NCBI RefSeq assembly: GCF_013403565.1
Contig: NZ_CP058627.1
Coordinates: 496,001 to 560,000, forward strand
Direction of reading: 5' to 3'
DNA: 64,000 nucleotides
DNA from: Chitinibacter bivalviorum
GTDB taxonomy: Bacteria > Pseudomonadota > Gammaproteobacteria > Burkholderiales > Chitinibacteraceae
Shown: positions 5,531 to 63,050 of the stretch, one piece after another
How the letters are laid out: each line of letters opens with the position of its first letter
Numbering within the stretch: position 1 is the stretch's first letter
Notes under the pieces: model-generated
What the model saw: only the letters and a program-made list of their open reading frames with translations
What the model was told of the DNA's origin: nothing
Databases searched by the model: none
Translations under genes and position numbers: made by a program

Positions 5531-5579
5531 GGGTATTGCTAGGAAATCAAATTTTCAATTGCTATTTAAAGCAATACCC
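5531..5579. repeat. 49-bp intergenic element, copy 1
   Basis: Perfect 10-bp inverted ends GGGTATTGCT and AGCAATACCC around a 29-bp AT-rich centre. It starts 9 bp after the recD stop and ends 11 bp before the truC stop on the other strand. It is the only obvious hairpin between these convergent genes. An inner ATTGCT can pair alternatively with the right arm. There is no G+C-rich stem with a U-run, so it is not a textbook intrinsic terminator. Confidence 0.85.
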
Positions 5580-5590
5580 TTGCTAGGTAT

Positions 5591-6385
5591 CTAAACCCAA
5601 ATCGTACGATTGCGCGGCGTGGTGATGGTGGGCTCGTCCCAAGTCATGCCCGCCTTGCGCAGCGCATCCAGGCCATCGAGCTGCGCAATCACATGGGCAA
5701 AATCACCGGCGAGTGGGCAGCGCAGCTCGATTTTTTGCTGCGTGCGCGGGTGGATAAAATCGAGCCCCGTGCAAGCGAGCAAGAGCCGATCGACTTCGAA
5801 GGCTTCGGCAAATGCGCGATTGTGGCGACCTTTTCCATAGGTGCTGTCGCCAATAATCGGATGGCTGATGTGTTTCAAATGGCGGCGAATCTGATGGCGC
5901 CGCCCAGTGATCGGGTTGAGCGCAAGCAAAGCGTAGCGGCTGGTCGGGTAGCGTTCAACTTCCCAGTTAAGGGTAAATTGCGCCAGCGAGCGATAGTGAG
6001 TGGCGGCTTCCTGCGGTGCTTTATGATCAATATTGCTGCGCGGATCAACGTCATCTTGCCGCACCGACAGCGCGTGCTCGATCAAGCCTGATTCGTCCGC
6101 CCAGCCACGCACCAGCGCCAGATAGCTTTTATCCACGCGGCGCTCGCTAAATGCTTCACCCATTAAGCGGGCCATGTCTGAATTGAGCGCAAACAGCAGT
6201 GCACCCGAGGTGGCTTTATCTAGCCGATGGATCGGATAAACATGCTGGCCGATCTGATCGCGTAGTTTTTGCAAAGCAAATTCGGTCTCGAAAAAATCCA
6301 GATCAGTTTTGTGCACCAACAGATTGCTTGGTTTGTGGATCGCTATCAACTCGGGGTCACGGTATAAAATTGGTAACATAAACAT
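5591..6385 (-). CDS. truC: tRNA pseudouridine(65) synthase TruC
   Basis: RluA-family pseudouridine synthase, about 264 aa, the size of E. coli TruC (260). It isomerises U65 in certain tRNAs. The N-terminus reads LPILYRDPELIAIHKPSNLLVH. The family motif is YPIHRLDKATSGALLF, with catalytic Asp in HRLDKATSG. Further conserved blocks are SYLALVRGW, NPITGRRHQIRRHLKHISHPIIGDSTYGKG and LLLACTGLDFIHPRT. The RDQIGQHVYPIHRLD context matches TruC better than RluC/RluD because no S4 domain precedes it. Starts possible are GTG 6388, ATG 6385 and ATG 6379; none has a clear Shine-Dalgarno, and 6385 is a compromise. It is divergent from the unknown gene at 6450. Confidence 0.9.
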   Translation of the reverse strand: MFMLPILYRDPELIAIHKPSNLLVHKTDLDFFETEFALQKLRDQIGQHVYPIHRLDKATSGALLFALNSDMARLMGEAFSERRVDKSYLALVRGWADESGLIEHALSVRQDDVDPRSNIDHKAPQEAATHYRSLAQFTLNWEVERYPTSRYALLALNPITGRRHQIRRHLKHISHPIIGDSTYGKGRHNRAFAEAFEVDRLLLACTGLDFIHPRTQQKIELRCPLAGDFAHVIAQLDGLDALRKAGMTWDEPTITTPRNRTIWV

Positions 6386-6449
6386 CACTTGATCAATGGT
6401 GCTTTAGCATAAAATTAACCTGTGTTATTCTTAACTCAGTCTTACAGGT

Positions 6450-6953
6450 ATGGAATTAATTGAAATGACGGTGGCTGTGGCAAATCAGGTTTATAAGTGT
6501 GGACATGCACATCTGGCGGATCAGCTCGACGAGAGTAAAGAGCACTTGGCGACGCTGATGAATTCGGCCAAGGATACTTTATGTCCGGAATGTTGCCGTG
6601 TCGAATTCCAACTATTAGAACTCGATTGCCAAGCTTATGCCAACTTGCAGCACATGTCGTCGGAAATGTCGGCCTTTGTGATCGAGGTTTCGGGCATTAC
6701 CGAGCCACTGAGCTCGATTTTGGCGCTCAACGATTATCACCAACGCGCGCCTTCGATCGATGAATTAACGCCCGGCGGCGAAGCTTTCGATTTGCCGCAC
6801 TCGGTATGGCGTAAGGAATTTTGGTTTGCCAATACTACCGATCCGGTCCACGTGGTGATGTTGATGGATCACCTCAAGCAAGAAATGGATTGGCTGGCTT
6901 CCTATATGCCGTCTGGCAAGGCAGGGATGCATTTTGGTCGGTTTATCGGCTAA
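6450..6953 (+). CDS. Hypothetical protein with Cys-rich N-terminal half
   Basis: 167-aa soluble protein that I do not recognise. The N-terminal part has KCGHAHL (C17, H19, H21) and later LCPECC (C45, C48, C49), a spacing that could bind zinc or another metal. The middle contains SSEMSAFVIEVSGITEPLSS. The C-terminal half is acidic to aromatic, with SVWRKEFWFANTTDP and QEMDWLASYMPSG. No signal peptide or membrane segment is seen. ATG 6450 and the in-frame ATG at codon 6 are both possible starts. It stands alone between divergent truC and convergent glnE and ends in a shared bidirectional terminator. Codon use looks like its neighbours, so it is probably a real lineage-specific gene. Confidence 0.75.
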   Translation: MELIEMTVAVANQVYKCGHAHLADQLDESKEHLATLMNSAKDTLCPECCRVEFQLLELDCQAYANLQHMSSEMSAFVIEVSGITEPLSSILALNDYHQRAPSIDELTPGGEAFDLPHSVWRKEFWFANTTDPVHVVMLMDHLKQEMDWLASYMPSGKAGMHFGRFIG

Positions 6954-6986
6954 CCTCCTCGCAAGTCGGATTAGTCTGCAATAAAA

Positions 6987-7009
6987 AAACGGCGCTTTAA
7001 GCGCCGTTT
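6987..7009. terminator. Bidirectional intrinsic terminator
   Basis: Stem AAACGGCGC / GCGCCGTTT with loop TTTAA, flanked by A-run and T-rich sequence. It lies between the convergent unknown gene (+) and glnE (-) and can serve both. Confidence 0.85.
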
Positions 7010-7017
7010 GTGTTTGC

Positions 7018-9702
7018 CTAGGGCTGTGGAAATAATTGCTCCCACAATGCCTGCACCGCATTCATCTCCAGTGTCAGCGGCTCGATCATGGCCAGACTCA
7101 GCTCGGTGCCGTTGAGCCGATGCGTATGTTGCAAGCGGCGCAGTTCGCGGTATGCGGTACGTGCATGCTCGGCCGCGTGGCTGCTGATCAAATGATGCTG
7201 CGCGGCCACATCAAGTAGCGCGATATTGCCTGCGTTGGCGGTGAGCTGCGGCAAGGTGCGCGCGTGAGCCAGAATCAAAAACTGCACAATAAACTCAATA
7301 TCGACAATGCCACCTCGGCGATGCTTCACATCATGGGCAAGCGCCGGATGCGTTTCGAGCATTTTATTGCGCATTTTGAGTACTTCGGCCTGCAAGGCTG
7401 CGATATCTCGTTCCTTGCATAGAATATCGTGGCGGATTTGCTCAAAGTTTTTGCCAACGTGCGTGTCGCCCGCGCAAAAGCGTGCTCGGGTAATGGCCTG
7501 ATGCTCCCACACCCAAGCCGATTGGTGCTGATATTCGCTAAACGCTTGCACCGTGGACACCAGCAAGCCTGATGAGCCATTGGGACGCAGGCGTAAATCA
7601 ATATCGTAAAGCTGGCCAGCGGAGGTGAGCGAAGTGAGCCAATTGACGATGCGCTTGGCGAGGCGCGCATAGATTTCGGGTGCGTTGGCGTGATCGTCGT
7701 CATATAGGTACACAATATCCAGATCTGACGCAAAGCCCAATTCTTTGCCGCCCAGTTTGCCGTAGCCGATGATGGCAAAATTGGCTTGTTCGCGGTGCTT
7801 ATTGGGCAGATCTTTCCACGCTTGCTCCAGCGCGACGCTCAAAATCAGATCGGCCAAATCGGACAAATGATCCGATAGCCGTTCCAGCGGCAATAATCCA
7901 GCCAGATCTTGCGATACCAGACGAAAGATTTGCGAGTGCTGGAAATGGCGCAGGCAATCCATACGCGCTTCAATATCATCCGCCAGCTCATTCATTTCCT
8001 GTCGCAAAATCCGGCCCAATTTATCCCATTCTGGTTCTTGATGCAGCAGGCGGAAATCGAGCAATTCATCGAGCAAAATCGGATGGCGGGTCAGGTATTC
8101 CGACACCCAAGGGCTGGCGCTATACAAGCTCGCGAGGCGTTTCAAGGTTTGCGGGTGTTCAGCGAGCAGCGCCAAATATGATTCGCGGCGGCTAATCGCA
8201 TCGAGCAAATCGAGTAGGCGCATCAGTGTGGCGTCGGGATTGCCAAATTGAGCCGTGGTACTGATTAAGGACGGCAAAATGCTATCGAGACGACGACGGC
8301 AGCGATCGGGCATTTGCCGGTATTTGCTGCTGTCTTGCATGGCCGTAAGGCGACGCTGAATTTCGGCTGGATTTTGGTAGCCCAATTGTTGGTAGTAGGG
8401 GGTATTGCCATCACTGAAAGCATCAATGGGATCTTCAGTCTCATCCTGTGTGGGAGTATTTTGTTCTGGCTGCAGAAAGACTTCTTCAAAGTGCTTACTG
8501 ACGATGGTGCGATGGGCGTCGAGCGCCGCTCTAAATTGCGCCCAATCGCCAAAGCCCATGCTAATCGCCAATTTATGCTGATCTTCCTCATTGCTTGGCA
8601 GCATCTGGGTTTGTGCGTCATCCAGATACATAATCCGGTGTTCCACATCGCGCAAAAACACATAGGCCGCTTGTAACTCGGTGACGACGTCTTGCGGCAA
8701 ATTTCCTTGTGCTGCCAATTCATTCAAAATCGCTTGGGTCGCACGTGACCGCAGCGTTTTATTACGCCCCCCCCGTATAAGCTGGAAGACCTGGCCGATA
8801 AACTCGATTTCGCGGATACCCCCAGGGCCGAGCTTGACATTGTCGAGACGGTCTTTGCGCTCGACCTCGCGGCGAATCTGGCTGTGCAGCTCGCGCATTG
8901 AATGGTAAGCGCCGTAATCGAGGTATTTGCGATAGACAAATGGCGTCACCAGATCCATCAAGCCCTGTTCATCGCCGGTGAGCGCGCGGCCTTTAATCCA
9001 TGCGTAGCGTTCCCACTCGCGTCCTTGGGTGAGCAGGTAGTTTTCCAGTGCGGCAAAGCTCGTCACCAAGGGCCCTGAGTCACCAAAGGGGCGTAAGCGC
9101 ATATCGACACGGAAGACAAAGCCGTTGGCATCGGTATCGCCAATCAGGCGAATCAGGCGTTTGCCGATGTTGGCGAAATACTCATGATTGCTGATTTTGC
9201 GTGGCCCGGTGGTTTCACCGTCTTCGGGGTAGACAAAAATCAGATCAATATCAGAAGACACATTGAGCTCGCGCTCACCGAGCTTGCCCATGCCAACGAC
9301 GATGAGTTGCTGCACTTCGCCGGTTTCTTCGCCGATCGGCTGGCCATAACGCTCATCAGGTTTGCTGACCCAAGCGAGCGCGGTTTCGACGGCAACTTCG
9401 GCCAGATCGGTGATCGTATGCATCGCTTCTTTCAGATCGGATAAGCCATTGATTTCGCGCACGACAAGTCGGGCCATCACGGCTTGGCGTAAATGCCGCA
9501 ATTGCATCGCCAGCTCTTCTTCACTTTGGGCGGGTTTGGCGAGCAAACGCAATTGCATTTCGGCTTTGTGAAAGGCTTGCGTGGCGTGTTCGGCGGTTTC
9601 TTGTGCCAGAGCGGGGCGGCATAAAAAGAGGCGTTGCAGGTATCGGCTATGGTTTTGAGCTGAAATCAGTTGTGGATGCGCTTCAATGATGTTTTCTGTC
9701 AT
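7018..9702 (-). CDS. glnE: Bifunctional glutamine synthetase adenylyltransferase/deadenylase GlnE
   Basis: Adds or removes AMP on glutamine synthetase in response to PII and PII-UMP. 894 aa, somewhat shorter than the 946 of E. coli. Two nucleotidyltransferase modules are visible: VGMGKLGERELNVSSDIDLI (about residues 131-150; deadenylylase half) and IGYGKLGGKELGFASDLDIV (about 642-661; adenylyltransferase half). Each is followed by its DxRLRP block (RVDMRLRPFGDSGPL; YDIDLRLRPNGSSGLL). The GGIREIEFIGQ and GGIVDIEFIVQ segments are also typical. Its regulator glnB is also in this window (16726-17064) but not in an operon with it. ATG 9702 gives a normal N-terminus. Confidence 0.97.
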   Translation of the reverse strand: MTENIIEAHPQLISAQNHSRYLQRLFLCRPALAQETAEHATQAFHKAEMQLRLLAKPAQSEEELAMQLRHLRQAVMARLVVREINGLSDLKEAMHTITDLAEVAVETALAWVSKPDERYGQPIGEETGEVQQLIVVGMGKLGERELNVSSDIDLIFVYPEDGETTGPRKISNHEYFANIGKRLIRLIGDTDANGFVFRVDMRLRPFGDSGPLVTSFAALENYLLTQGREWERYAWIKGRALTGDEQGLMDLVTPFVYRKYLDYGAYHSMRELHSQIRREVERKDRLDNVKLGPGGIREIEFIGQVFQLIRGGRNKTLRSRATQAILNELAAQGNLPQDVVTELQAAYVFLRDVEHRIMYLDDAQTQMLPSNEEDQHKLAISMGFGDWAQFRAALDAHRTIVSKHFEEVFLQPEQNTPTQDETEDPIDAFSDGNTPYYQQLGYQNPAEIQRRLTAMQDSSKYRQMPDRCRRRLDSILPSLISTTAQFGNPDATLMRLLDLLDAISRRESYLALLAEHPQTLKRLASLYSASPWVSEYLTRHPILLDELLDFRLLHQEPEWDKLGRILRQEMNELADDIEARMDCLRHFQHSQIFRLVSQDLAGLLPLERLSDHLSDLADLILSVALEQAWKDLPNKHREQANFAIIGYGKLGGKELGFASDLDIVYLYDDDHANAPEIYARLAKRIVNWLTSLTSAGQLYDIDLRLRPNGSSGLLVSTVQAFSEYQHQSAWVWEHQAITRARFCAGDTHVGKNFEQIRHDILCKERDIAALQAEVLKMRNKMLETHPALAHDVKHRRGGIVDIEFIVQFLILAHARTLPQLTANAGNIALLDVAAQHHLISSHAAEHARTAYRELRRLQHTHRLNGTELSLAMIEPLTLEMNAVQALWEQLFPQP

Positions 9703-13771: not shown

Positions 13772-13820
13772 AGGTATTGCTGTGGAGTTATTTAATTTGT
13801 TCATCTTTGTATAAATACTA
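13772..13820. repeat. 49-bp intergenic element, copy 2 (diverged)
   Basis: Begins AGGTATTGCT two bases after the yhdP stop and ends AAATACTA; the span is again 49 bp. GGTATT (columns 2-7) pairs with AATACT, including one G-T wobble. TCTTTG is at columns 33-38 where other copies have TCTTTA. It lies between co-directional yhdP and nit, just before the nit ribosome binding site. Confidence 0.55.
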
Positions 13821-13831
13821 ATGGAGGGTAT

Positions 13832-14740: not shown

Positions 14741-16192
14741 ATGAGCGCCTCTTTCGATTATTTTGCAATTGCCGAGCAACAGCTGCTCACGCCTTTCCAG
14801 CTCGATGATCAGGCGATTAATAATGTGTTTGGCCAGATGCTGACGCACGACATTGATTATGCCGATTTGTATTTTCAATTCAGCCGTTCGGAAGCGTGGA
14901 GCTTGGACGAAGGGATTGTGAAATCGGGTAGTTTTAATATCGACCAAGGCGTCGGTGTCCGCGCAGTGAGTGGAGAGAAAACGGCCTTTGCTTATTCAGA
15001 TGACATCAGTTTGCCAGCTTTGACCCAAGCGGCGCAGGCTACGCGCGCAATTGGTCGCCAAGGCGGGCAGGGTATTGCACCTTTAAGCCATAAAAATAAA
15101 GGATTGCAGCTCTATACACCAGTTGATCCGCTGGCCAGTCTGGATGAAGTGGCGAAAGTCGCCTTGCTGGAAAAAATCGAGCAAATTGCGCGCAGCCTCG
15201 ATCCCCGCGTCGTGCAGGTAATGGCGAGTTTGGCGAGTGAGTATGAAGTCATCTATATCGCGCGCCATGATGGGCATCGCGCTGCCGATGTGCGCCCGCT
15301 GTGTCGCCTATCAATTAATGTGATTATCGAAGCCAATGGCGCGCGCGAGCAGGGTAGTGCGGGCGGTGGTGGCCGCTTTGATTATGCTTATTTCACCGAT
15401 GCCGTATTGCTCGACTATGCCAAAAAAGCTGTCGATCAAGCGGTATTGAATCTCGATGCACGCCCCGCGCCAGCGGGTGAAATGACGGTCGTGCTTGGTA
15501 GCGGTTGGCCCGGTATTTTATTGCACGAAGCGATTGGCCATGGTTTGGAAGGCGATTTTAACCGTAAAGGCAGCTCGGCGTTTGCCGGTAAAATCGGTCA
15601 GCGCGTCGCAGCGAAGGGCGTCACTGTGGTCGATGACGGCACGATCGCCGATCGCCGTGGCTCGCTTAATATCGACGATGAAGGTAATCCAACGCAACGG
15701 ACAGTGTTGATTGAAGACGGTATTTTGAAAGGTTATTTGCAAGATAGCCTGAACGCCCGGCTGATGGGTATGCCCGTCACTGGCAATGGCCGTCGCGAAA
15801 GCTACGCGCATATCACGATGCCGCGCATGACGAATACGCTGATGGAAAATGGCGACAAAGACCCGGCTGAAATCATTGCCTCGATCGATCGCGGGCTGTA
15901 TGCGGTGAATTTCGGCGGTGGGCAGGTGGATATTACCAGCGGCAAATTTGTATTTTCGGCGGCTGAGGCTTGGTACGTTGAAAACGGCAAAATGCTCTAC
16001 CCAGTGAAAGGAGCAACGCTGATTGGCAATGGCCCCGATGTACTGACGCGGGTGTCCATGATCGGCAACGACATGGCGCTCGACCCCGGTGTGGGAACCT
16101 GCGGTAAAGACGGTCAAAGCGTGCCCGTGGGCGTAGGGCAGCCTACGCTACGCATCGATGGCGGTCTGACAGTTGGCGGCACGGCAGGTTAA
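14741..16192 (+). CDS. tldD: Metalloprotease TldD
   Basis: 483 aa, the usual length of TldD. With TldE/PmbA it forms a cytoplasmic Zn protease that degrades unfolded peptides and, in some bacteria, matures microcins. The metal motif HEAIGHGLEGD is at about residues 261-271 in GWPGILLHEAIGHGLEGDF. Other family blocks are GTIADRRGSLNIDDEG, ESYAHITMPRMTNT and FGGGQVDITSGKFVFSAAEA. The ATG at 14741 follows ACAGG with good spacing. The partner pmbA is not in this window. The downstream GNAT gene starts 3 bp after the stop, so the two are probably co-transcribed. Confidence 0.96.
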   Translation: MSASFDYFAIAEQQLLTPFQLDDQAINNVFGQMLTHDIDYADLYFQFSRSEAWSLDEGIVKSGSFNIDQGVGVRAVSGEKTAFAYSDDISLPALTQAAQATRAIGRQGGQGIAPLSHKNKGLQLYTPVDPLASLDEVAKVALLEKIEQIARSLDPRVVQVMASLASEYEVIYIARHDGHRAADVRPLCRLSINVIIEANGAREQGSAGGGGRFDYAYFTDAVLLDYAKKAVDQAVLNLDARPAPAGEMTVVLGSGWPGILLHEAIGHGLEGDFNRKGSSAFAGKIGQRVAAKGVTVVDDGTIADRRGSLNIDDEGNPTQRTVLIEDGILKGYLQDSLNARLMGMPVTGNGRRESYAHITMPRMTNTLMENGDKDPAEIIASIDRGLYAVNFGGGQVDITSGKFVFSAAEAWYVENGKMLYPVKGATLIGNGPDVLTRVSMIGNDMALDPGVGTCGKDGQSVPVGVGQPTLRIDGGLTVGGTAG

Positions 16193-16666: not shown

Positions 16667-16715
16667 GGGTATTGAATTGAAGGCTATCTATTGCTTGGTC
16701 TTTAATTCAATACCC
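16667..16715. repeat. 49-bp intergenic element, copy 3
   Basis: GGGTATTGAATT pairs perfectly with AATTCAATACCC; one further G/C pair extends the stem outward at 16666 and 16716. It sits 28 bp after the GNAT stop and 11 bp before the stop of convergent glnB, with no other hairpin between them. TCTTTA occupies columns 33-38. The inner arm sequence differs from copy 1 but remains complementary. Confidence 0.9.
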
Positions 16716-20890: not shown

Positions 20891-23305
20891 ATGTCTGAGC
20901 ACACATTATTACCAGCAGAATCAACTTCCTTTCCTGTCTTGCCATTACGTGATGTGGTCGTGTTTCCACATATGGTGATTCCTTTGTTTGTGGGGCGCCC
21001 AAAATCAATCAAAGCCCTCGAAGCTGCGATGGATTCAGGTAAGCATATTTTGCTGGTGGCACAAAAAAATGCAGCAAAAGATGAGCCAGCATTTGCAGAT
21101 ATTTATCCGATTGGTACCGTTGCAACGGTATTGCAATTATTGAAACTGCCTGATGGCACTGTGAAAGTGCTAGTGGAAGGCTTGCAGCGTGCTCAGGTTG
21201 AAGAGTTGCTTGATGATGATGGCTTTTATCGAGTGGTGGCAACCCCATTGCCGCCTGCGCCAGAGGACAGTAATGAAACTGAAGCTATGCGCCGGACTTT
21301 GCTCGCGCAATTCGATCAATATGTAAAACTGAATAAAAAAATTCCACCTGAAATTCTTTCTTCATTGGCTGGAATTGAAACTGCTGGCCGTTTGGCTGAC
21401 ACGGTTGCGGCACACTTGCCACTGAAATTAGAGCAAAAACAAGCCGTGCTCGAAATGGAAGATGTGTCGGCCCGCATGGATCATTTGCTCAAGCAGCTTG
21501 AGTCTGAGCTTGATATTTTGCAGGTCGAGAAACGCATCCGTGGGCGTGTCAAACGTCAAATGGAAAAAAGCCAGCGTGAATACTATTTGAATGAGCAGGT
21601 TAAGGCCATTCAAAAAGAGCTGGGTGAGCTTGATGAAAATGCCGATTTGGATGAACTTGAAAAGCGCATCAAAGCAGCAGGCATGAGCAAAGAAGCTCGG
21701 GAGAAGACTGATGGCGAGTTGAAAAAACTGCGCATGATGTCTCCTATGTCAGCCGAAGCGACTGTAGTGCGTAATTACATTGATACGATTTTGGCGCTTC
21801 CTTGGAAAAAGAAAACCAAAATTAGCAAAGACATTGCCGAAGCTGATCAGGTGCTCGATGCTGATCACTATGGCTTAGAAAAAGTCAAAGAGCGCATTGT
21901 TGAGTATTTGGCGGTACAAACGCGAGTTGAAAAGCTTAAAGCACCAATTTTGTGCTTAGTTGGCCCTCCTGGTGTAGGTAAAACTTCGCTGGGTGAAAGT
22001 ATTGCACGTGCTACGAATCGCAAATTTGTGCGCATGGCTTTGGGCGGTGTACGTGATGAAGCAGAGATTCGTGGTCATCGCCGTACTTATATAGGTTCGA
22101 TGCCAGGTAAAATTTTGCAAAGCATGACCAAGGTTGGCGTGAAAAACCCTTTGTTCTTGCTCGATGAAGTAGACAAGCTAGGTAGTGACTTCCGCGGCGA
22201 TCCATCTTCAGCCTTGCTGGAGGTCTTGGATCCAGAGCAAAATCATTCCTTCAGTGATCATTACTTAGAGGTCGATTACGACTTATCTGATGTAATGTTT
22301 GTGGCGACGGCGAACTCGCTCAATATCCCTGCGCCATTACTGGACCGGATGGAGATTATTCGACTTTCCGGGTATACCGAAGATGAAAAGGTCAATATTG
22401 CGCTGAAATACCTCGTTCCCAAGCAAATGAAGAATAACGGCGTTGCTGAGGGCGAATTGCAGATTGCAGATACCGCAGTGCGCGATATTATTCGCTACTA
22501 CACACGTGAAGCAGGTGTGCGTAGTTTGGATCGTGAAATAGCGAAAATTTGTCGCAAAGTAGTGAAGGCACTGCTGCTTAAGCCATCAGACAAAAAAATT
22601 ACTGTTAATGCGAAAAACCTCGATAAGTATTTGGGCGTTCATCGTTTTGAATTCGGCGTTGCAGAATTGAAAAACCAAATCGGTCAGGTGACAGGTTTGG
22701 CTTGGACTGAAGTTGGCGGCGAGTTACTGACTATCGAAACGGTAAAATTGCCAGGCAAAGGCAAAATGATCCAGACGGGGCAGCTCGGTGATGTGATGCA
22801 AGAATCCATACAAGCGGCCTTGTCAGTTGTGCGCTCGCGTGCAATTAGCTTGGGGATTGACCCTGAGTTTTACCAGAAAAACGATATGCACATTCACCTG
22901 CCTGAAGGTGCAACACCAAAAGATGGCCCATCAGCTGGTATTGCTATCGCAACCGCATTGACCTCTGTGTTGACGGGTATACCCGTACGCTGCGATGTTG
23001 CAATGACGGGTGAAATTACCTTGCGCGGTGAAGTCTTGCCAATTGGTGGATTGAAAGAAAAACTGCTCGCGGCACATCGCGGCGGGATCAAACAAGTCTT
23101 AATTCCAGAAGGAAATGTCAAAGACCTGATTGAAATACCCGACAATGTCAAACGAGGGCTTGCTATTCACTCGGTCAAGTGGTTTGATGAGGTGTTGGCC
23201 TATGCGCTGGAACGGATGCCAGTAGCTACCGTTGAGGCGGCGAGTGCTGAAGAGGCATTGGCAGCGCCAAACGTTGACACAAACCAACACAGCCTTAAGC
23301 ATTAA
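20891..23305 (+). CDS. lon: ATP-dependent protease Lon
   Basis: 804-aa AAA+ serine protease of regulators and misfolded proteins. N-terminal LAN substrate domain ([20 protein letters not shown]), central ATPase with Walker [12 protein letters not shown] and Walker [12 protein letters not shown], and C-terminal protease with catalytic Ser681 in PKDGPSAG and Lys724 in [10 protein letters not shown] (E. coli Ser679/Lys722). ATG 20891 lies ten bases after an AGGT. I see no clear heat-shock promoter in the 70-bp upstream stretch. Confidence 0.97.
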
Positions 23306-28130: not shown

Positions 28131-29030
28131 ATGAGCAATATCGATTATTCAACAATTCTGACTGGCATTGAGGGTGTGCGTATTGTTTCGTCCAACGAAA
28201 AATATGCGCAATCTGGCGCAGGCTTGCCAATCGTCGTGGTTGAAAACCAGCTGGGCTCTGCAAGTTTAGCTTTGCAAGGCTGCCATTTGCTCTCGTTTGT
28301 TCCTGCTCATGGCAACGATTTACTGTGGCTTTCCCCCTTGGCGAGCTTTGACCCTGATAAAGCAATTCGTGGTGGAATACCATTGTGTTTACCATGGTTT
28401 GGTGGCCATCCTGCTGGCTTGCAATCACATGGCTTTGCGCGCACCAGTGACTGGACCCTAGAAAAAGCGAGCAATCAGCCTGATGGCTCGACATTGCTGA
28501 TTTTAAGTTTGAGTAGCACAACTGAAACCTTGGCGATGTGGCCACATGCTTTCCGCTTCGAGATGCAAATTGAAGTAGGGACTGAACTCAAGCTCACATT
28601 AAATGTCGATAACCTGAGTGATACCCCCGCACCGTTTACGTATGCATTCCATACCTACTTTGCTGTTGATGACTATACCCAGTGTCCAATTCTAGGATTG
28701 GAAGATTTAACCTATATCGACACAGTGGGTGAAGTACGTCGCCTGCCGCAAGAGGGGACTTTACAGCTCACTGGCCACACCGATCGCGTGTATTTGGATG
28801 TGCCTGAGGCGCAAACCATTGTCGATGGCGCGCGCCAAATTCATATACACGGTACGGCAAAAAGCGCAATTGTTTGGAATGCGGCAGAACATGCTCTGAA
28901 TATCGCAGACATAGGTCCAGCTTATACTCGCTATGTGTGCGTGGAGCGCGGTGATGTGTTTGATAATGCGCTGACGATCGCCCCACAATCTCGTTTTAGC
29001 TCAGTGATGACGTTGTCTGAAACACGTTAA
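28131..29030 (+). CDS. yeaD: D-hexose-6-phosphate mutarotase (YeaD family)
   Basis: 299-aa aldose-1-epimerase-like enzyme that interconverts anomers of glucose-6-phosphate. Family blocks: AIRGGIPLCLPWFGGHP, QSHGFARTSDW (substrate His), FTYAFHTYFAVDD and YVCVERGDVFDNALTI (catalytic Glu in CVERG). GAGGAG is about 10 nt before ATG 28131. An out-of-frame ATG at 28124 is not used. A terminator follows the gene. Confidence 0.88.
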   Translation: MSNIDYSTILTGIEGVRIVSSNEKYAQSGAGLPIVVVENQLGSASLALQGCHLLSFVPAHGNDLLWLSPLASFDPDKAIRGGIPLCLPWFGGHPAGLQSHGFARTSDWTLEKASNQPDGSTLLILSLSSTTETLAMWPHAFRFEMQIEVGTELKLTLNVDNLSDTPAPFTYAFHTYFAVDDYTQCPILGLEDLTYIDTVGEVRRLPQEGTLQLTGHTDRVYLDVPEAQTIVDGARQIHIHGTAKSAIVWNAAEHALNIADIGPAYTRYVCVERGDVFDNALTIAPQSRFSSVMTLSETR

Positions 29031-31927: not shown

Positions 31928-31976
31928 GGGTATATTCATTAGCATCATTATTTGTAATGTCTTTATCAATATACCC
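31928..31976. repeat. 49-bp intergenic element, copy 4
   Basis: GGGTATATT and AATATACCC form a perfect 9-bp inverted end pair; TCTTTA lies at columns 33-38. It begins 6 bp after the VOC stop and ends 6 bp before the stop of convergent ydcF, filling almost the whole gap. No other hairpin is present between these genes. Confidence 0.88.
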
Positions 31977-36808: not shown

Positions 36809-36857
36809 ATGTATATTATTGAAACATAGATAAATATTTGTTCTTAGCGGGATACCC
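36809..36857. repeat. 49-bp intergenic element, copy 5 (diverged left end)
   Basis: Starts ATGTAT ten bases after the regulator stop and ends ATACCC exactly 49 bp later. ATGTAT is also the left end of copy 9, and its complement ATACAT is the right end of copy 6, so it may be a recurrent end variant. A true terminator follows directly. Confidence 0.5.
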
Positions 36858-36897: not shown

Positions 36898-38733
36898 GTG
36901 CGCCCAGCATGGGCGCATTCTTGCGGGTGTAAGTCCCGCCGTAAGTTGATCACAGCGAACGAAGTGAAGCGCAACTGCGTGAGGGTGACCGAGCGTGGGA
37001 AGGAAGCGTGGATCGAAACTGTGAGCCGATGAACAAGAACCGGATACAAGGCGTTGTCGAGCAGGGCGAGCGGCCATATGACCGCAAAGCTCTCGTGATC
37101 AAGGCTCAGGCGGCGTAAATCCGGCGGTTGTGCAGTGAAGGAATGCGTTCTTACCTGGGGAGATCTCGCTTTACGCCTGAAAGGGCAACGATGTTAATCG
37201 GCGCGAGAAGTCAGCAGAGGCCGTAGTAGCTGCCCGTTCGGAGCAAAGGGCCAAACGAGAAGGAGAGTCTGTTTTCATGTCGCATGGACGTGTAATGCAT
37301 CAGAAGCCTGAATCATCAGGGCGCAATACCAACGGGCAAGGTGAAGCCAAACCCAAGGTACTGCGTGATGAAACACGGCTGGCGCGGCAAGAGTCAAACA
37401 GCTCAGGGCAAGACCTGCTACAGCAGGTGCTTGCGCGAGATAATCTGATTCAAGCATGGCAACGTGTTAAAGCCAATCAAGGCAGTGCTGGCGTGGACGG
37501 TCTGAATATTGACTCGACCAAGGTTTATCTGCAAACGCACTGGCCACAGATTCGGGAGCGCATCTTGCGAGGTAGCTACCGACCTTTACCGGTACGCCGA
37601 GTGCAGATTCCCAAACCGGATGGCGGCCAGCGAGAGCTAGGTATACCAACCGTCACAGATCGGTTAATCCAACAGGCACTGCTGCAAATTCTTCAACCCC
37701 TGATTGATCCGACATTCTCCGAGCACAGCTATGGCTTCAGGCCAGGTCGGCGAGCGCATGATGCAGTCCGTCAGGCACAAGCCTATGTGCAGGCAGGAAG
37801 GCGGATCGTCGTCGACGTCGATCTGGCGCAGTTCTTTGATCGAGTAAACCACGACATCCTGATGGATAGGTTAGCAAAACGCATCAAGGATGCCGCATTG
37901 CTGCGGCTGATAAGGCGCTACTTGCAAGCCGGGATTCTGGATGGAGGGATCAAACTGGAGCGACACGAAGGCACGCCGCAGGGCGGCCCTTTGTCGCCTT
38001 TGCTCGCCAATATCATGTTGGACGAAGTGGATCGTGAGCTGGAGAAGCGCGGTCTTTGCTTTGTGCGTTATGCAGATGACTGCAATGTTTATGTGCGTAG
38101 CTACCGAGCAGGACAGCGAGTACTGGCGGGTCTACGTCGCCTGTATGCCAAACTTCACTTACAAGTGAACGAAAGCAAAACTGCAGTTGCATCGGTATTC
38201 GGTCGCAAATTCCTGGGGTTCAGCCTCTGGGTTGGGCGGGGCGGCGTCGTCAATCGAAAGGTGGCGGACAAAGCGCTGGAGAAGTACAAACAGCGCATCC
38301 GGCAACTGACGCGACGAAACGGCGGTCGTAGTCTGGAAGAAGTGATTGAGAAACTGCGGATGTATATACCGGGCTGGAAAGGCTATTTCCAACTGGCACA
38401 AACGCCGAAAGTATTTCGAGAGCTTGACGAATGGTTACGGCACCGACTACGCGCGGTACAACTGAAGCAGTGGAAAAGAGGAAAGACCATCTACCGGGAA
38501 ATGCGGCGACTTGGGAGTATCGAAAGCGAAGCCTTAAAAGTGGCTGCCAATTCCGGTCGTTGGTGGCATAACAGCTGTATGGCCTTGAATCGAGTATTGC
38601 CGATCAGTCACTTTGATCGTCTGGGTTTGCCCCGTCTTGCATAACCTCAATATCTCGAACCGCCCGGTGCGGACCCGCATGCCGGGTGGTGTGGCAGGGG
38701 TCGATCAGTTGCACTGATCGCCCCTATGCCGAT
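36898..38733 (+). mobile_element. Group II intron, probably class C
   Basis: The 5' end GTGCGCCC is a group II start and folds at once into GCGCCCAGCATGGGCGC. At the 3' end, domain V is visible at 38659-38690 (ACCGCCCGG paired with CCGGGTGGT) and domain VI at about 38693-38730 (GGCAGGGG paired with CCCCTATGCC, with an unpaired A near the end). The intron probably ends GAT at 38733. It carries its own reverse transcriptase/maturase without an endonuclease domain and sits just behind an intrinsic terminator. Both facts fit class C. Exact 3' boundary is accurate to a few bases. Confidence 0.85.
37277..38644 (+). CDS. ltrA: Group II intron reverse transcriptase/maturase
   Basis: 455-aa intron-encoded protein that assists splicing and reverse transcription of the intron. 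Reverse transcriptase blocks: ANQGSAGVDG, YRPLPVRRVQIPKPDGG, RELGIPTVTDRLIQQAL, YGFRPGRRAHDAV, VVDVDLAQFFDRVNHDIL, GTPQGGPLSPLLANIMLDEV, the catalytic YADD (FVRYADDCNVYV, about residue 262-273) and KFLGFSLWVG. The X/maturase domain (MYIPGWKGYFQLA, LDEWLRHRLRAVQLKQWKRG) ends the protein. No HNH endonuclease follows. AAGGAGAG precedes ATG 37277. The gene lies in intron domain IV and appears intact. Confidence 0.95.
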   Translation: MSHGRVMHQKPESSGRNTNGQGEAKPKVLRDETRLARQESNSSGQDLLQQVLARDNLIQAWQRVKANQGSAGVDGLNIDSTKVYLQTHWPQIRERILRGSYRPLPVRRVQIPKPDGGQRELGIPTVTDRLIQQALLQILQPLIDPTFSEHSYGFRPGRRAHDAVRQAQAYVQAGRRIVVDVDLAQFFDRVNHDILMDRLAKRIKDAALLRLIRRYLQAGILDGGIKLERHEGTPQGGPLSPLLANIMLDEVDRELEKRGLCFVRYADDCNVYVRSYRAGQRVLAGLRRLYAKLHLQVNESKTAVASVFGRKFLGFSLWVGRGGVVNRKVADKALEKYKQRIRQLTRRNGGRSLEEVIEKLRMYIPGWKGYFQLAQTPKVFRELDEWLRHRLRAVQLKQWKRGKTIYREMRRLGSIESEALKVAANSGRWWHNSCMALNRVLPISHFDRLGLPRLA

Positions 38734-42051: not shown

Positions 42052-42100
42052 GGGTACTGCTCTGTGGATATTTAAATAAATAATCTTCAGAGCAATACAT
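42052..42100. repeat. 49-bp intergenic element, copy 6
   Basis: Starts GGGTACTGCTCTG two bases after the gtsC stop and ends CAGAGCAATACAT. Columns 7-13 (TGCTCTG) pair perfectly with CAGAGCA, while the outer ends carry mismatches. It is located between the second permease and ATPase genes of one transporter, so it is unlikely to be a full terminator. Confidence 0.75.
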
Positions 42101-42160
42101 AGCTAGAGTATTTAAGTCTGGCCACAGGCCAGCGAATGCCAAGCACAATGGAGAATAAAA

Positions 42161-48464: not shown

Positions 48465-49375
48465 TGGTAATGGCGACAGATTCCGTAATCGATTTCAAAG
48501 TTTGGATGAGCCAAGTTCAAGTGCAAATGGAAATTGCGCTTGATCGCTACTTGCCAGCCAGCACCCATATCCCCGAACGTCTGCACGACGCGATGCGCTA
48601 TAGCGTACTTGACGGCGGTAAACGCGTTCGCCCTTTACTGGCCTTCGCAGCAGGCGCACTCGTCGATGCCGATCCTGCACGCTTGGAAGCGGCCGGTGCG
48701 GCGCTGGAAATGATTCATGCTTACTCGCTGGTGCATGACGATATGCCCGCGATGGACAACGATGTCTTGCGCCGTGGTAAACCTACTGTGCACGTAGCGT
48801 TTGGCGAGGCCACCGCACTGCTGGCTGGGGATGCCTTGCAAACTGCCGCGTTTGATGTTTTAAGCGCGACGACCTTGACAGATTCGCCGAGCGATCAGTT
48901 GAAAATGATCAATATCTTGGCGCGCGCATCGGGTAGTTTGGGGATGTGCGGCGGGCAGGGGATTGATCTGTATAGCGTTGGGCAAGAATTAACGCTGCCC
49001 GAGCTGGAAATGATGCATATTCTGAAAACCGGTGCCTTGATCCGTGCGGCGGTGTTGCTGGGCTCGTATTGCGGTACGCCACTGAGCGATGAAGCGCGTA
49101 ATGCGCTTGATCATTACGCCAAATGCGTCGGGCTGGCGTTTCAGGTGGTGGACGACATTCTCGATTGCGAAGCCGATTCGGCAACGCTGGGCAAAACGGC
49201 AGGGAAAGATGCCGCCAATAATAAGCCTACGTATGTGGCTTTGCTCGGTATGAAAGGCGCGAAAGAAAAGGCTGAAGAGCTGAAACAGGCGGCGTTTGAT
49301 GCGCTTGCGCCATTTGGTGAAAAAGCAAAATTACTACATGCCCTAGCTGGGTATATTGTTGATCGTAAATATTGA
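48464..49375 (+). CDS. ispA: Farnesyl diphosphate synthase IspA
   Basis: About 303 aa. Condenses IPP with DMAPP/GPP to farnesyl diphosphate. First Asp-rich motif LVHDDMPAMDNDVLRRGKP, second VVDDILDCEADS; also GGKRVRPLL and KTGALIRAAV. Two in-frame ATGs (48464, 48470) are possible. The last eight codons (GYIVDRKY) lie inside a copy of the 49-bp element. Confidence 0.95.
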   Translation: MVMATDSVIDFKVWMSQVQVQMEIALDRYLPASTHIPERLHDAMRYSVLDGGKRVRPLLAFAAGALVDADPARLEAAGAALEMIHAYSLVHDDMPAMDNDVLRRGKPTVHVAFGEATALLAGDALQTAAFDVLSATTLTDSPSDQLKMINILARASGSLGMCGGQGIDLYSVGQELTLPELEMMHILKTGALIRAAVLLGSYCGTPLSDEARNALDHYAKCVGLAFQVVDDILDCEADSATLGKTAGKDAANNKPTYVALLGMKGAKEKAEELKQAAFDALAPFGEKAKLLHALAGYIVDRKY

Positions 49376-49397
49376 TATTGCTTTCAAGGTTATACCC
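49349..49397. repeat. 49-bp intergenic element, copy 7 (overlaps ispA end)
   Basis: GGGTATA at the left and TATACCC at the right, 49 bp apart, with CTTTCA at columns 33-38. The left half encodes the last residues of IspA, and the stop codon is at columns 25-27. Dxs starts 26 bp after it. Confidence 0.7.
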
Positions 49398-51968: not shown

Positions 51969-52017
51969 GGGTATTGACTTGTAAGCATTATATTTATTAG
52001 CTTTGATGTATATACCC
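51969..52017. repeat. 49-bp intergenic element, copy 8
   Basis: GGGTAT at the left and ATACCC at the right, 49 bp, starting 7 bp after the bfd stop. CTTTGA lies at columns 33-38. A conventional terminator follows 20 bp later, so here the element is not needed for termination. Confidence 0.82.
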
Positions 52018-53381: not shown

Positions 53382-54158
53382 GTGATTCCCAGCCCAAAAC
53401 AAATTGCTTTTGCTCATCAGCTAGCAGACGCCAGTGCCGCCGTCATTCGACCCTATTACCGCAGTGGTCTGGCGATTGATGATAAAAGCGATGCCAGCCC
53501 GGTGACGCAGGCCGATCGCGAGGCGGAGTTGGCGATGCGTGCGCTGATTAATGAATGCCGACCCCAAGATGGCATTATTGGCGAAGAATTTGGCACTGAG
53601 CGCGATGACGCCGATTGGGTCTGGGTGCTCGATCCCGTCGATGGGACCAAAGCATTTATTACCGGTCGCCCATTGTTTGTGACCTTGATTGGTTTGCTGT
53701 ATCGCGGTGTACCCGTACTGGGTGTGATTAACCAGCCGATCGCGCATGAGCGTTGGGTGGGGGTCGTCGGGCAGGGCGCAACCTTGAATGATCAGCCGAT
53801 TACCGTGAGCGAAATCGCTGAAATGTCGCGCGCGCGCATTGGTACGACTGGCCCGCAATATTTTAGCGATGCAGGCCGTGCCGCGTTTATGGATTTGCAA
53901 AAAAACGGGCGTTTTACCGTGTATGGTGGCGACGGCTATCAATATGCACTGGTCGCCACTGGCGGGCTCGATTTGGTGATTGAAGAAGGCTTGAAGCTGC
54001 ATGACTTTGCTGCTGTTGCCCCTGTCGTGATTGCTGCCGGTGGCATCATGACCGACTGGCAAGGTGAAGCCTTGACGCGTACCAGCTCAGGTCGAGTGAT
54101 TGCCGCTGCTACCCCTGCCATGTATCAGATTGCACTCAATGCAATGAAAGCTGTTTAA
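53382..54158 (+). CDS. hisN: Inositol-monophosphatase-family phosphatase (probable histidinol-phosphatase HisN)
   Basis: 258 aa. Metal-binding motifs: GIIGEEFGTE, VLDPVDGTKAFITGRPLF (the DPIDGT-type Li-sensitive phosphatase motif) and LKLHDFAAVAPVVIAAGG. TKAFITGRPLFVTLIGL is characteristic of HisN rather than SuhB or CysQ. GTG 53382 is the start, with GGAG about 7 nt upstream. Not next to other his genes, so the role is inferred from the family. The last codons overlap a diverged 49-bp element. Confidence 0.82.
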   Translation: MIPSPKQIAFAHQLADASAAVIRPYYRSGLAIDDKSDASPVTQADREAELAMRALINECRPQDGIIGEEFGTERDDADWVWVLDPVDGTKAFITGRPLFVTLIGLLYRGVPVLGVINQPIAHERWVGVVGQGATLNDQPITVSEIAEMSRARIGTTGPQYFSDAGRAAFMDLQKNGRFTVYGGDGYQYALVATGGLDLVIEEGLKLHDFAAVAPVVIAAGGIMTDWQGEALTRTSSGRVIAAATPAMYQIALNAMKAV

Positions 54159-54168
54159 TCATATACCC
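54120..54168. repeat. 49-bp intergenic element, copy 9 (diverged, overlaps hisN end)
   Basis: Left end ATGTAT, right end ATACCC, exactly 49 bp, TGTTTA at columns 33-38. The left part encodes the hisN C-terminus. Only end spacing and the ATACCC end support it, so it is weaker than the other copies. Confidence 0.4.
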
Positions 54169-58735: not shown

Positions 58736-59728
58736 TTAGACACTGAGATCCAGTTGTTGCAGATTGCCGCCGCTGCCATCTTCATTGAGGTAAATCCCCG
58801 AGCTGCGAATTTGGCCGAGATTCTGATTTTGAGCATTATTCAAATCAAAATCAGCACGGGCATAGCCCAAATAGATTGCGCCCACTTTCATCGCGGTGAG
58901 GCTATTGAGCTGATCCTGCCCACTGCTGTCTTTCAGCCACAGCTTGAGCTGGCCAAAGACTTGATCGCCGCTGTCGATCCAGCCATTTTTATCCTGATCG
59001 TATTGCGCCAAATCGGCAAAGCCATTGCCGCTTTGCGTGCCGAATAATTCTTTGCCGTTATTGATTTTTCCATCGTGATTAAGATCGAGCGCCAAATAGG
59101 CACTGCCAGCATTGAGTTGATGGATTGTGTCTGCTTTGCCGTCGCTATCAATATCAAATTTCATCGTTTGATCGGACAAAGTGACCGCCGGCGCGGCGTA
59201 GTTTAGTACCAGTGGGTCTTTTTTCGGCCGGGCAAGGCTGCCGCTGGCGATGCTGACATCAAGCGTCTGCTCGTAAGTCCGCGCTAGCTTGAGCTGCGCT
59301 GCAAAACTAATCTCGCGACCATCTTCGGTTTTGACCACGCCACTGGCGTTAAATTGGGTTTGCTCGGATTCACTTTCTTGCTGATGTAGGTCGATGCGCG
59401 TACCGCCTTCATTGGCGCTGTTTTGAATACTGCCTTGGGTATTGCTATCAAGGCTATCACCAGATTGGTTTAGATGGAAATACCTCAGGTCAATTTTCTG
59501 CCCGGTGAGTTTTTCTATCATTTGGATGATCAATTGCAATTTGGGGTCGTTATTAATCGCTGTTTGCTGATCGTCGATCATTTTCGCCGCGCTCGAAATG
59601 TTGACCGTCTCATTGGCGGGAGGTGGACTCATGCGCGGCGCTTCGATGGTGATGGCCATTTTCTGGCTTTGCTCGCGACTAACAGCTCGCTGGGCGCTGA
59701 GGGCAACATTGGATTCGACGATGCGCAT
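58736..59728 (-). CDS. Hypothetical protein with EF-hand-like calcium motifs
   Basis: 330 aa. No signal peptide or membrane segment. The N-terminal part is polar and Gln/Ser-rich. The C-terminal part has DIDSDGKADTIH, DLNHDGKINNGKELFGTQSG and DQDKNGWIDSGDQVFGQLKL, the Asp/Asn-Gly loops of EF-hand/dockerin-like calcium sites. These commonly occur in large secreted adhesins (NGKELFG). AGAGG precedes ATG 59728. The function is unknown. Confidence 0.78.
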   Translation of the reverse strand: MRIVESNVALSAQRAVSREQSQKMAITIEAPRMSPPPANETVNISSAAKMIDDQQTAINNDPKLQLIIQMIEKLTGQKIDLRYFHLNQSGDSLDSNTQGSIQNSANEGGTRIDLHQQESESEQTQFNASGVVKTEDGREISFAAQLKLARTYEQTLDVSIASGSLARPKKDPLVLNYAAPAVTLSDQTMKFDIDSDGKADTIHQLNAGSAYLALDLNHDGKINNGKELFGTQSGNGFADLAQYDQDKNGWIDSGDQVFGQLKLWLKDSSGQDQLNSLTAMKVGAIYLGYARADFDLNNAQNQNLGQIRSSGIYLNEDGSGGNLQQLDLSV

Positions 59729-61747: not shown

Positions 61748-61758
61748 ATACAGGGTGG

Positions 61759-61807
61759 GTGTATTGCCCTGTAAATCAATATAAACAATATTTTTAGATA
61801 GATACCC
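61759..61807. repeat. 49-bp intergenic element, copy 10
   Basis: Left end GTGTATTG (one change from GGGTATTG), right end GATACCC, 49 bp, TTTTTA at columns 33-38. Starts 11 bp after the coaBC stop and ends just before the dut Shine-Dalgarno. Confidence 0.65.
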
Positions 61808-61820
61808 AAAGGAAAAGCAA

Positions 61821-62276
61821 ATGGCTCAGCAAATGATGGACGTGAAAATTCTTGATCAGCGCCTGAAAGACAATTTGCCCGCTTATGCCACCCCGGGTGC
61901 CGCGGGTCTGGATTTGCGCGCTTGTCTGGATGCGCCAGTGGAATTAGCCCCCGGCGCGACGACGCTGGTACCGACAGGCATGGCGATCCATTTGGAAGAC
62001 CCAACGCTAGCCGCAATGATTTTGCCGCGCTCTGGCTTGGGCCATAAACACGGCATCGTACTGGGTAATTTGGTGGGGCTGATTGATTCAGATTACCAAG
62101 GCCAGCTGTTTGTGTCGGTGTGGAATCGCGGCACTACCAGCTTTACGATTCAGCCACTGGAGCGTATCGCGCAATTGGTCATCGTGCCCGTGGTGCAAGT
62201 GGGCTTTAATATCGTGGAAGAGTTTACTGAGTCTGACCGTGGCGAAGGTGGCTTTGGCAGTACTGGTAAACATTAA
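61821..62276 (+). CDS. dut: dUTP diphosphatase
   Basis: 151-aa trimeric dUTPase. All five motifs: [44 protein letters not shown] and the C-terminal [20 protein letters not shown] precedes ATG 61821. A palindromic terminator follows. Confidence 0.97.
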
Positions 62277-62300
62277 TCCCGACCATCAAGCGTGATGAAC

Positions 62301-62331
62301 AGAGGCCCGATCGGGCCTCTTTCCGTTTTTC
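62301..62331 (+). terminator. Intrinsic terminator after dut
   Basis: Perfect palindrome AGAGGCCCGATCGGGCCTCT followed by TTTCCGTTTTT. Confidence 0.85.
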
Positions 62332-62389
62332 CCAACTGTGCATTGCACCATTTACGCGTAATCTGCCGTTTTTCGTTCGGGTTTGCGTC

Positions 62390-63001
62390 ATGAGCCAAAT
62401 TGCCCAGCATCAGCCGCATCATTATTTGGAAGATTTCCAAGGCATTGTGACGGGCGTGCTTTTGGTTGCGCTGGCAATTCAGTTTTTTCGCGCTGCCGGT
62501 TTGATTACCGGTGGCACGACGGGCTTGGCATTTTTGCTGCATTACAGTCTGCAGATCGAATATGGCATGACGCTATTTTTGATTAATCTGCCGTTTTACT
62601 GGTTTGCCATTGAGCGCATGGGCTGGGAATTTGCCATCAAAACCTTTTGCTCGGTGGCGCTGTTGTCATGGCTGAGTGAGTTGATGAAAAACTGGCTGCC
62701 ATTGGGTCATCTTGACCCTTTTTTTGCTGCGATCATGGGCGGCTTGCTCGCTGGCGTGGGTATTTTGATGCTGATTCGACATAAGTCGAGCTTGGCCGGC
62801 GTGACGGTGCTGGCGCTTTTTCTGCAGCAGCGTTTTGGCTGGCGCGCGGGTAAAGTGCAGTTGGGCTTTGATCTGATGATTTTGACGCTGGGTTTTTTCT
62901 TGGTGCCGCGCGACTTATTGCTGTATTCGCTGGTCGGGGCCGTGGCGCTCAATGCGGTGATTTGGGTGAATCATAAACCCGGTCGCTATATGGGAATGTA
63001 A
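62390..63001 (+). CDS. YitT family membrane protein
   Basis: 203 aa with about five hydrophobic segments. Typical pattern: FFRAAGLITGGTTGLAFLLH, INLPFYWFAIERMGW, LLAGVGILMLIRHKSSLAGV. Function unknown; no strong Shine-Dalgarno at ATG 62390. Confidence 0.87.
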   Translation: MSQIAQHQPHHYLEDFQGIVTGVLLVALAIQFFRAAGLITGGTTGLAFLLHYSLQIEYGMTLFLINLPFYWFAIERMGWEFAIKTFCSVALLSWLSELMKNWLPLGHLDPFFAAIMGGLLAGVGILMLIRHKSSLAGVTVLALFLQQRFGWRAGKVQLGFDLMILTLGFFLVPRDLLLYSLVGAVALNAVIWVNHKPGRYMGM

Positions 63002-63050
63002 GGGTATCTTCATCAAGACCAATGAGTGATTGATTTTGATGAAGATACCT
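63002..63050. repeat. 49-bp intergenic element, copy 11
   Basis: GGGTATCTTCATCAA pairs with TTGATGAAGATACCT over 14 bp (only the last position mismatches), the longest arms of the family. It starts directly after the YitT stop and ends 15 bp before the stop of the convergent HAD gene; no other hairpin is present. Confidence 0.9.

Follow-up and report, generated by a model that had tools for sequence, protein, structure and literature searches.

The 64,000-nucleotide stretch of the Chitinibacter bivalviorum genome analysed here (contig NZ_CP058627.1, positions 496,001 to 560,000; hereafter the window) carries numerous copies of a 49-bp palindromic sequence that begins with GGGTAT and ends with ATACCC. 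By comparing copies within and between genomes, we show that this sequence has the properties of a genome-wide, bipartite, two-fold symmetric DNA recognition site, and we hold it to be almost certainly real and functional. The best reading, which we put forward tentatively from the computational evidence, is that of a putative uptake-signal-like mark of self DNA with a new bipartite two-fold architecture.

The 49-bp Site Is Abundant in the Host Genome and in Related Genera

A sequence-only reading of the window had listed eleven sites of one 49-bp format. All eleven were recovered, and the five said to have both ends perfect (5531, 16667, 31928, 49349 and 51969) do have them. The predicted excess of GGGTAT-N37-ATACCC was borne out genome-wide: the host genome (3.68 Mb, four contigs) contains 243 exact copies vs. 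0 of the reversed pattern. When up to three mismatches were allowed, the window alone gave 36 matches vs. 11.8 expected, a count reached in 0 of 100 shuffles. The length is fixed, since among inverted GGGTAT..ATACCC pairs of 12–199 bp in 464 kb, 37 measured 49 bp, 5 measured 50 bp, and every other length occurred at most once.

A motif-free scan (all 5- and 6-mers, spacings of 24–109 bp, 80-kb samples) returned GGGTAT/49 or the inner GGTAT/47 as top pair in genus g4 and in one genome of genus g7 (G018). For the own genus and for G023, the other g7 genome, GGTAT/47 came first at k = 5; G023 gave no GGGTAT/49 match, and at k = 6 a local AAGCTT tandem array outranked GGGTAT/49 in the own genus. 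In g7 the signal reaches P values (1e-9 to 4e-8) that are rather close to that of the best match in a non-carrier genus (A-runs in g11, P 1e-7). A tandem array of 8 copies of a 51-bp unit, with AAGCTT in each, was noted at L042 1602-1965.

A symmetrised profile was built by iteration (score cut-off 12) with the window in its training set; profile and test data therefore overlap, and the control was the same sequence reversed, not complemented. The profile found 476 sites vs. 2 in reversed sequence in 1.664 Mb of the own genus (about 290 per Mb), 65 vs. 1 in 240 kb of g7 (271 per Mb) and 35 vs. 0 in 160 kb of g4 (219 per Mb); the window and L035 share 4 kb in these pooled counts. All eleven listed sites score >12. 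Extrapolation from density gives about 1,000 copies per genome.

Two Half-Sites at a Fixed Distance and an Interchangeable Outer Half

The near-invariant part is GTAT (columns 3–6) and its mirror ATAC, which stand a fixed 41 bp apart within the 49-bp element and are conserved at 94–100%. The ends first given as GGGTAT and ATACCC hold in these four bases, but their outer GG/CC are kept at just 47–71% depending on genus. Between the ends lies a weak symmetric core, T-N2-A-N2-C-N-WW (T12, A15, C18 and A/T at 20–22), which is stronger in g4 (T12 R N A G C C M T T T); the interior is otherwise free. The YYTTYA hexamer noticed earlier is the mirror of this core. Summed over all columns, the information content reaches about 26 bits in the own genus, a value inflated by score-based selection, and by our own arithmetic about 12 bits would specify ~1,000 sites in a genome of this size, so that the site looks over-specified.

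Where the inner ATACCC is imperfect, GGGTAT is found in the opposite orientation 11 bp further out. An outer GTAT (column 57 ± 1) was present in 51 of 90 half-sites without ATAC (0.6 expected), in 135 of 395 with ATAC but not CC (3.2 expected) and in 34 of 459 with ATACCC (3.3 expected); ATAC took the outer position instead 1, 4 and 1 times in the same three classes. Direct GGGTAT pairs at the outer spacing, counted independently of the profile, numbered 11 in the own stretches, 17 in congeneric species, 5 in g7 and 3 in g4; these counts include orthologous copies of the same pair. Each outer contact is therefore half of a two-fold site, ATACCC-N5-GGGTAT, either half of which can serve. This outer site is centred 27 bp from the element centre, and its outer half can lie one helical turn further out, reversed. 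Because no end stem can form in the direct arrangement, the site is more likely to be recognised as double-stranded DNA.

The sites of the window are given below with their scores on the symmetrised profile (threshold 12); no strand is assigned to any of them. The first eleven are those of the sequence-only reading.

5531..5579, 49-bp site with exact ends between convergent genes; outer half-site AGGTAT at 5585-5590; score 36.1
13772..13820, 49-bp site with degenerate right end ATACTA and compensating outer GGGTAT at 13826-13831; score 22.2
16667..16715, 49-bp site with exact ends, starting 27 bp past a stop codon; score 33.8
31928..31976, 49-bp site with exact ends, occupying the whole gap of a convergent gene pair; score 33.2
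36809..36857, 49-bp site, ATGTAT..ATACCC; a terminator-like stem with a T-run stands separately after it (by eye); score 26.3
42052..42100, 49-bp site, GGGTAC..ATACAT, with outer GAGTAT at 42106-42111; score 31.6
49349..49397, 49-bp site with exact ends, overlapping the 3′ end of an open reading frame (ORF); score 34.0
51969..52017, 49-bp site with exact ends, 6 bp past a stop codon; score 38.9
54120..54168, 49-bp site, ATGTAT..ATACCC, overlapping an ORF 3′ end; score 24.2
61759..61807, 49-bp site, GTGTAT..ATACCC, shortly past a stop codon; score 38.4
63002..63050, 49-bp site, GGGTAT..ATACCT, abutting a stop codon; long near-perfect stem, no T-run; score 34.0
548..596, intragenic 49-bp site, absent from the first list; score 27.7
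3147..3196, intragenic 50-bp form with both hexamers exact; score 18.8
8400..8448, weak intragenic site whose right end is replaced by outer GAGTAT at 8454-8459; score 11.3, below threshold
8773..8821, intragenic 49-bp site; score 14.2
15070..15119, 50-bp form in the TldD gene; score 21.8
22936..22984, intragenic 49-bp site; score 20.0
28632..28680, intragenic 49-bp site; score 19.9
35277..35325, intragenic 49-bp site with weak right end and outer CAGTAT at 35331-35336; score 21.6
59437..59485, strong intragenic 49-bp site; score 37.5

The outer GGGTAT at 13826-13831 abuts the ATG of a carbon-nitrogen hydrolase gene, and a similar layout is seen there by eye in other species. In two further species (L065, L067), the gene with the weak 8400 site carries GGGTAT..GGGTAT in direct arrangement.

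About Half of the Sites Lie Inside Genes

Gene calls came from a simple ORF finder that scores hexamers. Across six blocks totalling 880 kb, 141 sites were intergenic, 138 coding and 5 partial. The family had been described as intergenic, which did not hold: about half of its members are intragenic, including those at 548, 3147, 8773, 15070, 22936, 28632, 35277 and 59437 in the window. At the 49-bp phase there were 58 GGTAT..ATACC pairs lying entirely within predicted genes, and at the 50-bp phase there were 18, vs. about 1.3 per other length, an excess which indicates that the coding sites are no artefact of the profile; the respective counts in noncoding DNA were 118, 1 and about 0.3. The proposed length of exactly 49 bp thus applies to most copies, but a 50-bp form exists and is nearly confined to coding DNA (18 vs. 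1). Gaps can presumably mend such a form by a one-base deletion, which genes cannot.

Divergent promoter gaps are avoided: among gaps of at least 45 bp in 464 kb of the host genome, a site (score >8.5) was present in 3 of the 46 divergent ones, compared with 21 of the 46 between convergent genes and 47 of the 142 between tandem genes. Many sites stand 1–28 bp past a stop codon, and gap sites fold strongly (mean z −2.63 for 120 of the 204), as would be expected of transcription terminators or RNA hairpins that guard 3′ ends. Coding sites, however, fold little (−0.75 for 120 of the 237), the sites in direct arrangement lack an end stem altogether, a T-run follows 10 of 408 ends vs. 6 of 408 at a control position, and several sites have separate terminator-like stems beside them (by eye); we regard a terminator or hairpin role as very unlikely. 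Pairing beyond the consensus was found in a subset of 67 exact elements. We take the palindromic arms to follow incidentally from the symmetry of the site where the DNA is unconstrained and free to pair. At the Rfam gathering threshold, the window gave 5 matches (tRNAs and a group II intron), none of them at the sites.

The location past stop codons would also suit dispersed gene cassettes like those with attC sites, in which a gene with its 3′ element inserts at, or leaves, another element. In two close species (G006 and G007) three gene presence/absence differences are bounded by sites on both sides, whereas the allele without the gene has one site, in the following segments (0-based):

A20550-22162, B25802-26839 and B65238-66522, gene presence/absence segments in joined L059-L062 (A) and L063-L066 (B), G006 vs. 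G007

This idea looked strong in 80 kb and was weakened by a systematic check of 180 kb of the same pair, in which 3 of 7 clean length differences (at least 350 bp, with <100 bp on the other side; 19 gaps listed) had sites at both ends; 71 of 234 gaps hold a site anyway. One of the three events duplicated a flank and was hence imprecise, and the second pair (G018/G021) showed one large gap and no clean case. Cassettes would leave the sites deep in genes and their even spacing (see below) unexplained, and we judge them unlikely.

Along the chromosome, as sampled in stretches of two genomes, there is no broad density gradient. An exclusion of sites from the terminus, as in nucleoid occlusion, was considered and is unsupported by these stretches, the sparse ones being mostly islands of low guanine-plus-cytosine (GC) content plus one at the skew switch. 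Four low-GC stretches held 5 sites vs. 23.3 expected; here, and in the dispersion test below, some stretches had been chosen for suspected low density, so that the sample is not random. One stretch, G005:C1:900001-920000 (L118), has a strong GC skew (−0.195) and one site, and is perhaps a recent island. The three small contigs of the host genome carried 4 sites in 50 kb (of 103 kb) vs. 14.3 expected (P 0.0014), with 0 sites in the 35 kb from the two GC-rich contigs, a split by GC made after the result was seen. In the 20 kb sampled from one of these small contigs (L244 1-20000; host contig C2, 42,950 bases), the ORF pattern repeats every ~13.5 kb, as would that of a plasmid of this size assembled as a multimer; its GC is 0.645 and no sites were found within the 20 kb.

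Sites Are Evenly Spaced

The mean chromosomal spacing is about one site per 3 kb. In six blocks, which are partly orthologous and hence not fully independent, the coefficient of variation of neighbour distances was 0.721, 0.814, 0.592, 0.579, 0.700 and 0.877 vs. 0.94–0.98 in simulations, with P for evenness of 0.001, 0.052, 0.003, 0.002, 0.003 and 0.39 in the same order; one block is thus without evenness and one is borderline. Only 6 pairs of neighbours lay <400 bp apart, where 33.7 were expected.

Gene structure alone could bar close pairs of gap sites, and coding sites were therefore tested against fixed gap sites. Five of 138 coding sites lay within 600 bp of a gap site vs. a mean of 22 for random coding positions, and 0 of 200 draws were as low. 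Coding sites thus avoid gap sites and fill the holes of the gap array. In sixty 20-kb stretches the site counts were underdispersed (variance/mean 0.52, P 0.0007).

The Sites Are Abundant in Only Three Genera and Appear to Arise in Place

Among 43 genomes of the family, 15 carriers in 3 of 11 genera had 100–291 exact copies each, and the other 28 had 0–2. Across the order (300 genomes), 22 of the 296 genomes outside the carriers gave 1–3 exact matches vs. 9 for the reversed pattern. In named genomes of about 85,000 species, all 33 matches to the strict pattern fell in six species of Chitinibacter, Chitinilyticum and Deefgea. The carrier genera are probably these three, g7 being Deefgea by elimination. 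Viral contigs, which likely include few phages of these hosts, gave 0 matches to the strict pattern. In 40–80-kb samples of g5, g6, g8, g9, g10 and g11 (not g2 and g3), small enough to miss rarer or variant forms, no clear relative with other hexamers was seen; the best matches there were A-runs and short stems, with P no lower than 1e-7. In a YhdP tree of 30 genomes, the carriers g1 and g7 are sister groups, the third carrier being g4, and the non-carrier g8 lies near the same unresolved base, a placement which fits one gain with a possible loss.

Orthologous gene ends carry, by eye, site-like sequences with different interiors in other congeneric species and, in a few instances, in g7. The gap orthologous to that of the 42052 site has a site-like sequence with another interior in three further species of the genus. 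The 16667 site has no counterpart within 170 bp past the gene in five congeneric species, and one g7 genome has one. Many positions are unshared between species, and turnover is hence high.

Substitutions were counted in two genome pairs that are about 9% divergent, G006/G007 and G018/G021. Sites were picked in one member of each pair and the 42 of 49 that were fully aligned were kept (6 of 27 and 1 of 22 were dropped). The GTAT/ATAC columns had changed at 0 of 336 positions, GG/CC at 7 of 168, the interior at 181 of 1,553 and the flanks at 333 of 4,012; the difference between interior and flanks is partly due to the flanks being mostly coding.

Miniature mobile elements whose ends are short inverted repeats, REP/REPINs among them, would also be palindromic, often placed near 3′ gene ends and present in hundreds of copies. 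About half of the sites are, however, coding, and they are evenly spaced; interiors differ at orthologous positions, with no interior common to copies beyond the weak core; and no target duplication was seen by eye in 67 flanks. Matches to the Y1 transposase profile (PF01797) are absent from 5 of 15 carriers (G005, G009, G010, G018 and G023) and present in non-carriers. A mobile element is the least likely of the explanations that we considered. The candidate pairing of REP with RAYT (PF01797) was rejected, as RAYT presence does not track the site.

The free interior, the location of half of the sites in genes, the even spacing and the conservation of GTAT/ATAC at orthologues together argue for a protein recognition site that arises in place, not a copied element. 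What had been called a dispersed element family is therefore real, unnamed, fixed in length and palindromic, but its members are not copies of an element. No described family that it fits was found: Rfam had no match at the sites and a literature search yielded no matching repeat. REP elements and attC sites had rightly been set aside.

A Putative Uptake-Signal-Like Mark of Self DNA

Uptake signals are described as accumulating in the core genome and absent from recent acquisitions, stringently conserved, placed at permissive positions and spaced to match conversion fragments (PMC2397512). Even spacing is reported for them, yet it is also called less even than a role in compaction needs (PMC1939737), and they have an essential four-base inner core with weak flanks (PMC7811141). 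By analogy, the type IV pilus/competence machinery would include a receptor or other DNA-handling protein with a preference for site-bearing DNA. Biased uptake and recombination would then let sites pile up where they are cheap, at 3′ gene ends and tolerant codons and not at promoters, at about one site per exchanged fragment, and the DNA poor in sites, such as the low-GC stretches, would probably be acquired. A core-genome location is supported by GC as a proxy, low-GC stretches and GC-rich small contigs being site-poor. ComEC and ComP_DUS-type pilins were found in 43 of 43 genomes, which is a necessary condition only.

Several observations weigh against this proposal. ComEC and ComP-like pilins are present equally in the 28 non-carriers, and ComEC also in 10 of 14 control genomes; competence genes occurring in carriers and non-carriers alike, they do not discriminate. 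A ComP_DUS tree of 30 of the 36 hits (8 of 15 carriers, 7 non-carriers), some rows of which are long-branched and from which 6 hits were left out, showed no pilin group that all sampled carriers have in common and the others lack. A small host contig with chromosome-like GC has 4 sites in 15 kb, which is chromosomal density, and the three gene segments present in just one of two close species have flanking sites. A two-fold site usable either way, one turn apart, points to a dimeric, helix-turn-helix-like intracellular protein, although the predicted Haemophilus pilin receptor has been modelled with its signal in two opposite orientations (PMC12616744). The DNA uptake sequence (DUS) and the uptake signal sequence (USS) are short and non-palindromic, with minor pilins as known or predicted receptors (PMC3630211, PMC12616744), and the 49-bp bipartite two-fold site is not such a short contiguous non-palindromic motif.

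A ComP_DUS pilin was rejected as the receptor, since all 43 genomes have one and the tree contains no group restricted to carriers. No cognate protein was found (no whole-proteome profile was made). A literature search (subscription journals and preprints outside its scope) found no description of the motif or of an uptake signal in these genera, passages of PMC11316581 included, and no uptake experiment in them.

The Site as a Possible Target of an Intracellular Dimeric Protein

The main alternative is that an intracellular dimeric protein binds the sites, and organises, wraps or self-marks the chromosome about every 3 kb, with one dimer at each of two outer sites 54 bp apart and a further dimer on the core. 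Both the two-fold symmetry of the site and the either-half rule agree with it, as does the fixed 49-bp spacing (50 tolerated in genes), and the even spacing, the filling of gaps and the lack of a broad chromosomal gradient suit a need per region. On the other hand, no candidate protein was found, and the depletion in low-GC DNA suits both readings. No nucleoid protein known to us binds sequence-specifically at about 1,000 high-information sites in even array, which counts against an intracellular binder.

The either-half rule would be expected of a dimeric DNA-binding domain and not obviously of a minor pilin. On balance, we hold the uptake-signal-like mark to be plausible though short of probable, and the intracellular dimer to be a less plausible but serious contender. 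It is likewise possible, though we would not call it likely, that the sites belong to a previously undescribed marking system, in which a dimeric protein on ~1,000 evenly spaced two-fold sites of 49–71 bp lets the chromosome be organised, or recognised as self, every ~3 kb, genes supplying sites where the intergenic array has holes; such a system would correspond to no uptake sequence or nucleoid-protein site known so far.

Strong self-DNA uptake signals of such density are cited for two families, Pasteurellaceae and Neisseriaceae (PMC7811141). If the uptake-signal-like mark is correct, the site would define a third uptake-signal group with another architecture, common to three genera, and would allow a direct test of whether such arrays come from biased uptake or serve the chromosome itself. 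A cognate protein located in the cytoplasm would represent a new type of chromosome organiser with sequence specificity. Under either reading, the sites constrain gene sequences at a countable cost.

Comparison With Known Systems

The carriers and the Neisseriaceae belong to the same order. The DUS of the latter is a single non-palindromic 10–12-mer that occurs about once per kb. The Chitinibacter site shares with it a copy number of about a thousand or more, a core-genome bias, permissive positions, a short near-invariant core, inverted pairs in some gaps and the presence of ComEC and ComP_DUS-type pilin genes in the carriers. In contrast, it has two GTAT half-sites 41 bp apart and a symmetric core, and recurs about once per 3 kb. 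Frye et al. described DUS dialects with a three-base core and, at terminators, DUS in inverted pairs; in the family as it was circumscribed at the time, five genomes, including Chromobacterium and Laribacter, had no obvious DUS (PMC3630211).

The USS of Pasteurellaceae likewise has a four-base core (GCGG, compared with GTAT here) with weaker flanks that include A/T tracts, and occurs in genes and gaps. It is, however, about 30 bp long with a single oriented core and found about once per kb, whereas the Chitinibacter site combines two-fold symmetry with a pair of cores and an outer half that is interchangeable.

Integron attC sites are, like the site described here, imperfect palindromes with conserved ends that often lie past stop codons. 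Their core sites are the conserved 7-bp RYYYAAC/GTTRRRY. The Chitinibacter sites instead end in GGGTAT/ATACCC, are single and dispersed, occur inside genes too and have a redundant outer half-site. REP/REPINs are also palindromic, with many copies near gene ends, but REPINs are randomly distributed in extragenic space (PMC3116915). The Chitinibacter site differs in its even spacing, in lying in genes about half of the time, and in having neither a matching transposase profile nor a copied interior.

A Group II Intron in the Window

At 36979-38644 of the window lies a group II intron, matched by Rfam D1D4-3 and D1D4-1, that contains an ORF for a reverse transcriptase/maturase. It begins soon after the terminator-like stem that trails the 36809 site. 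The interval between the genes flanking the intron measures 2.1 kb here vs. 269–290 bp in three congeneric species.

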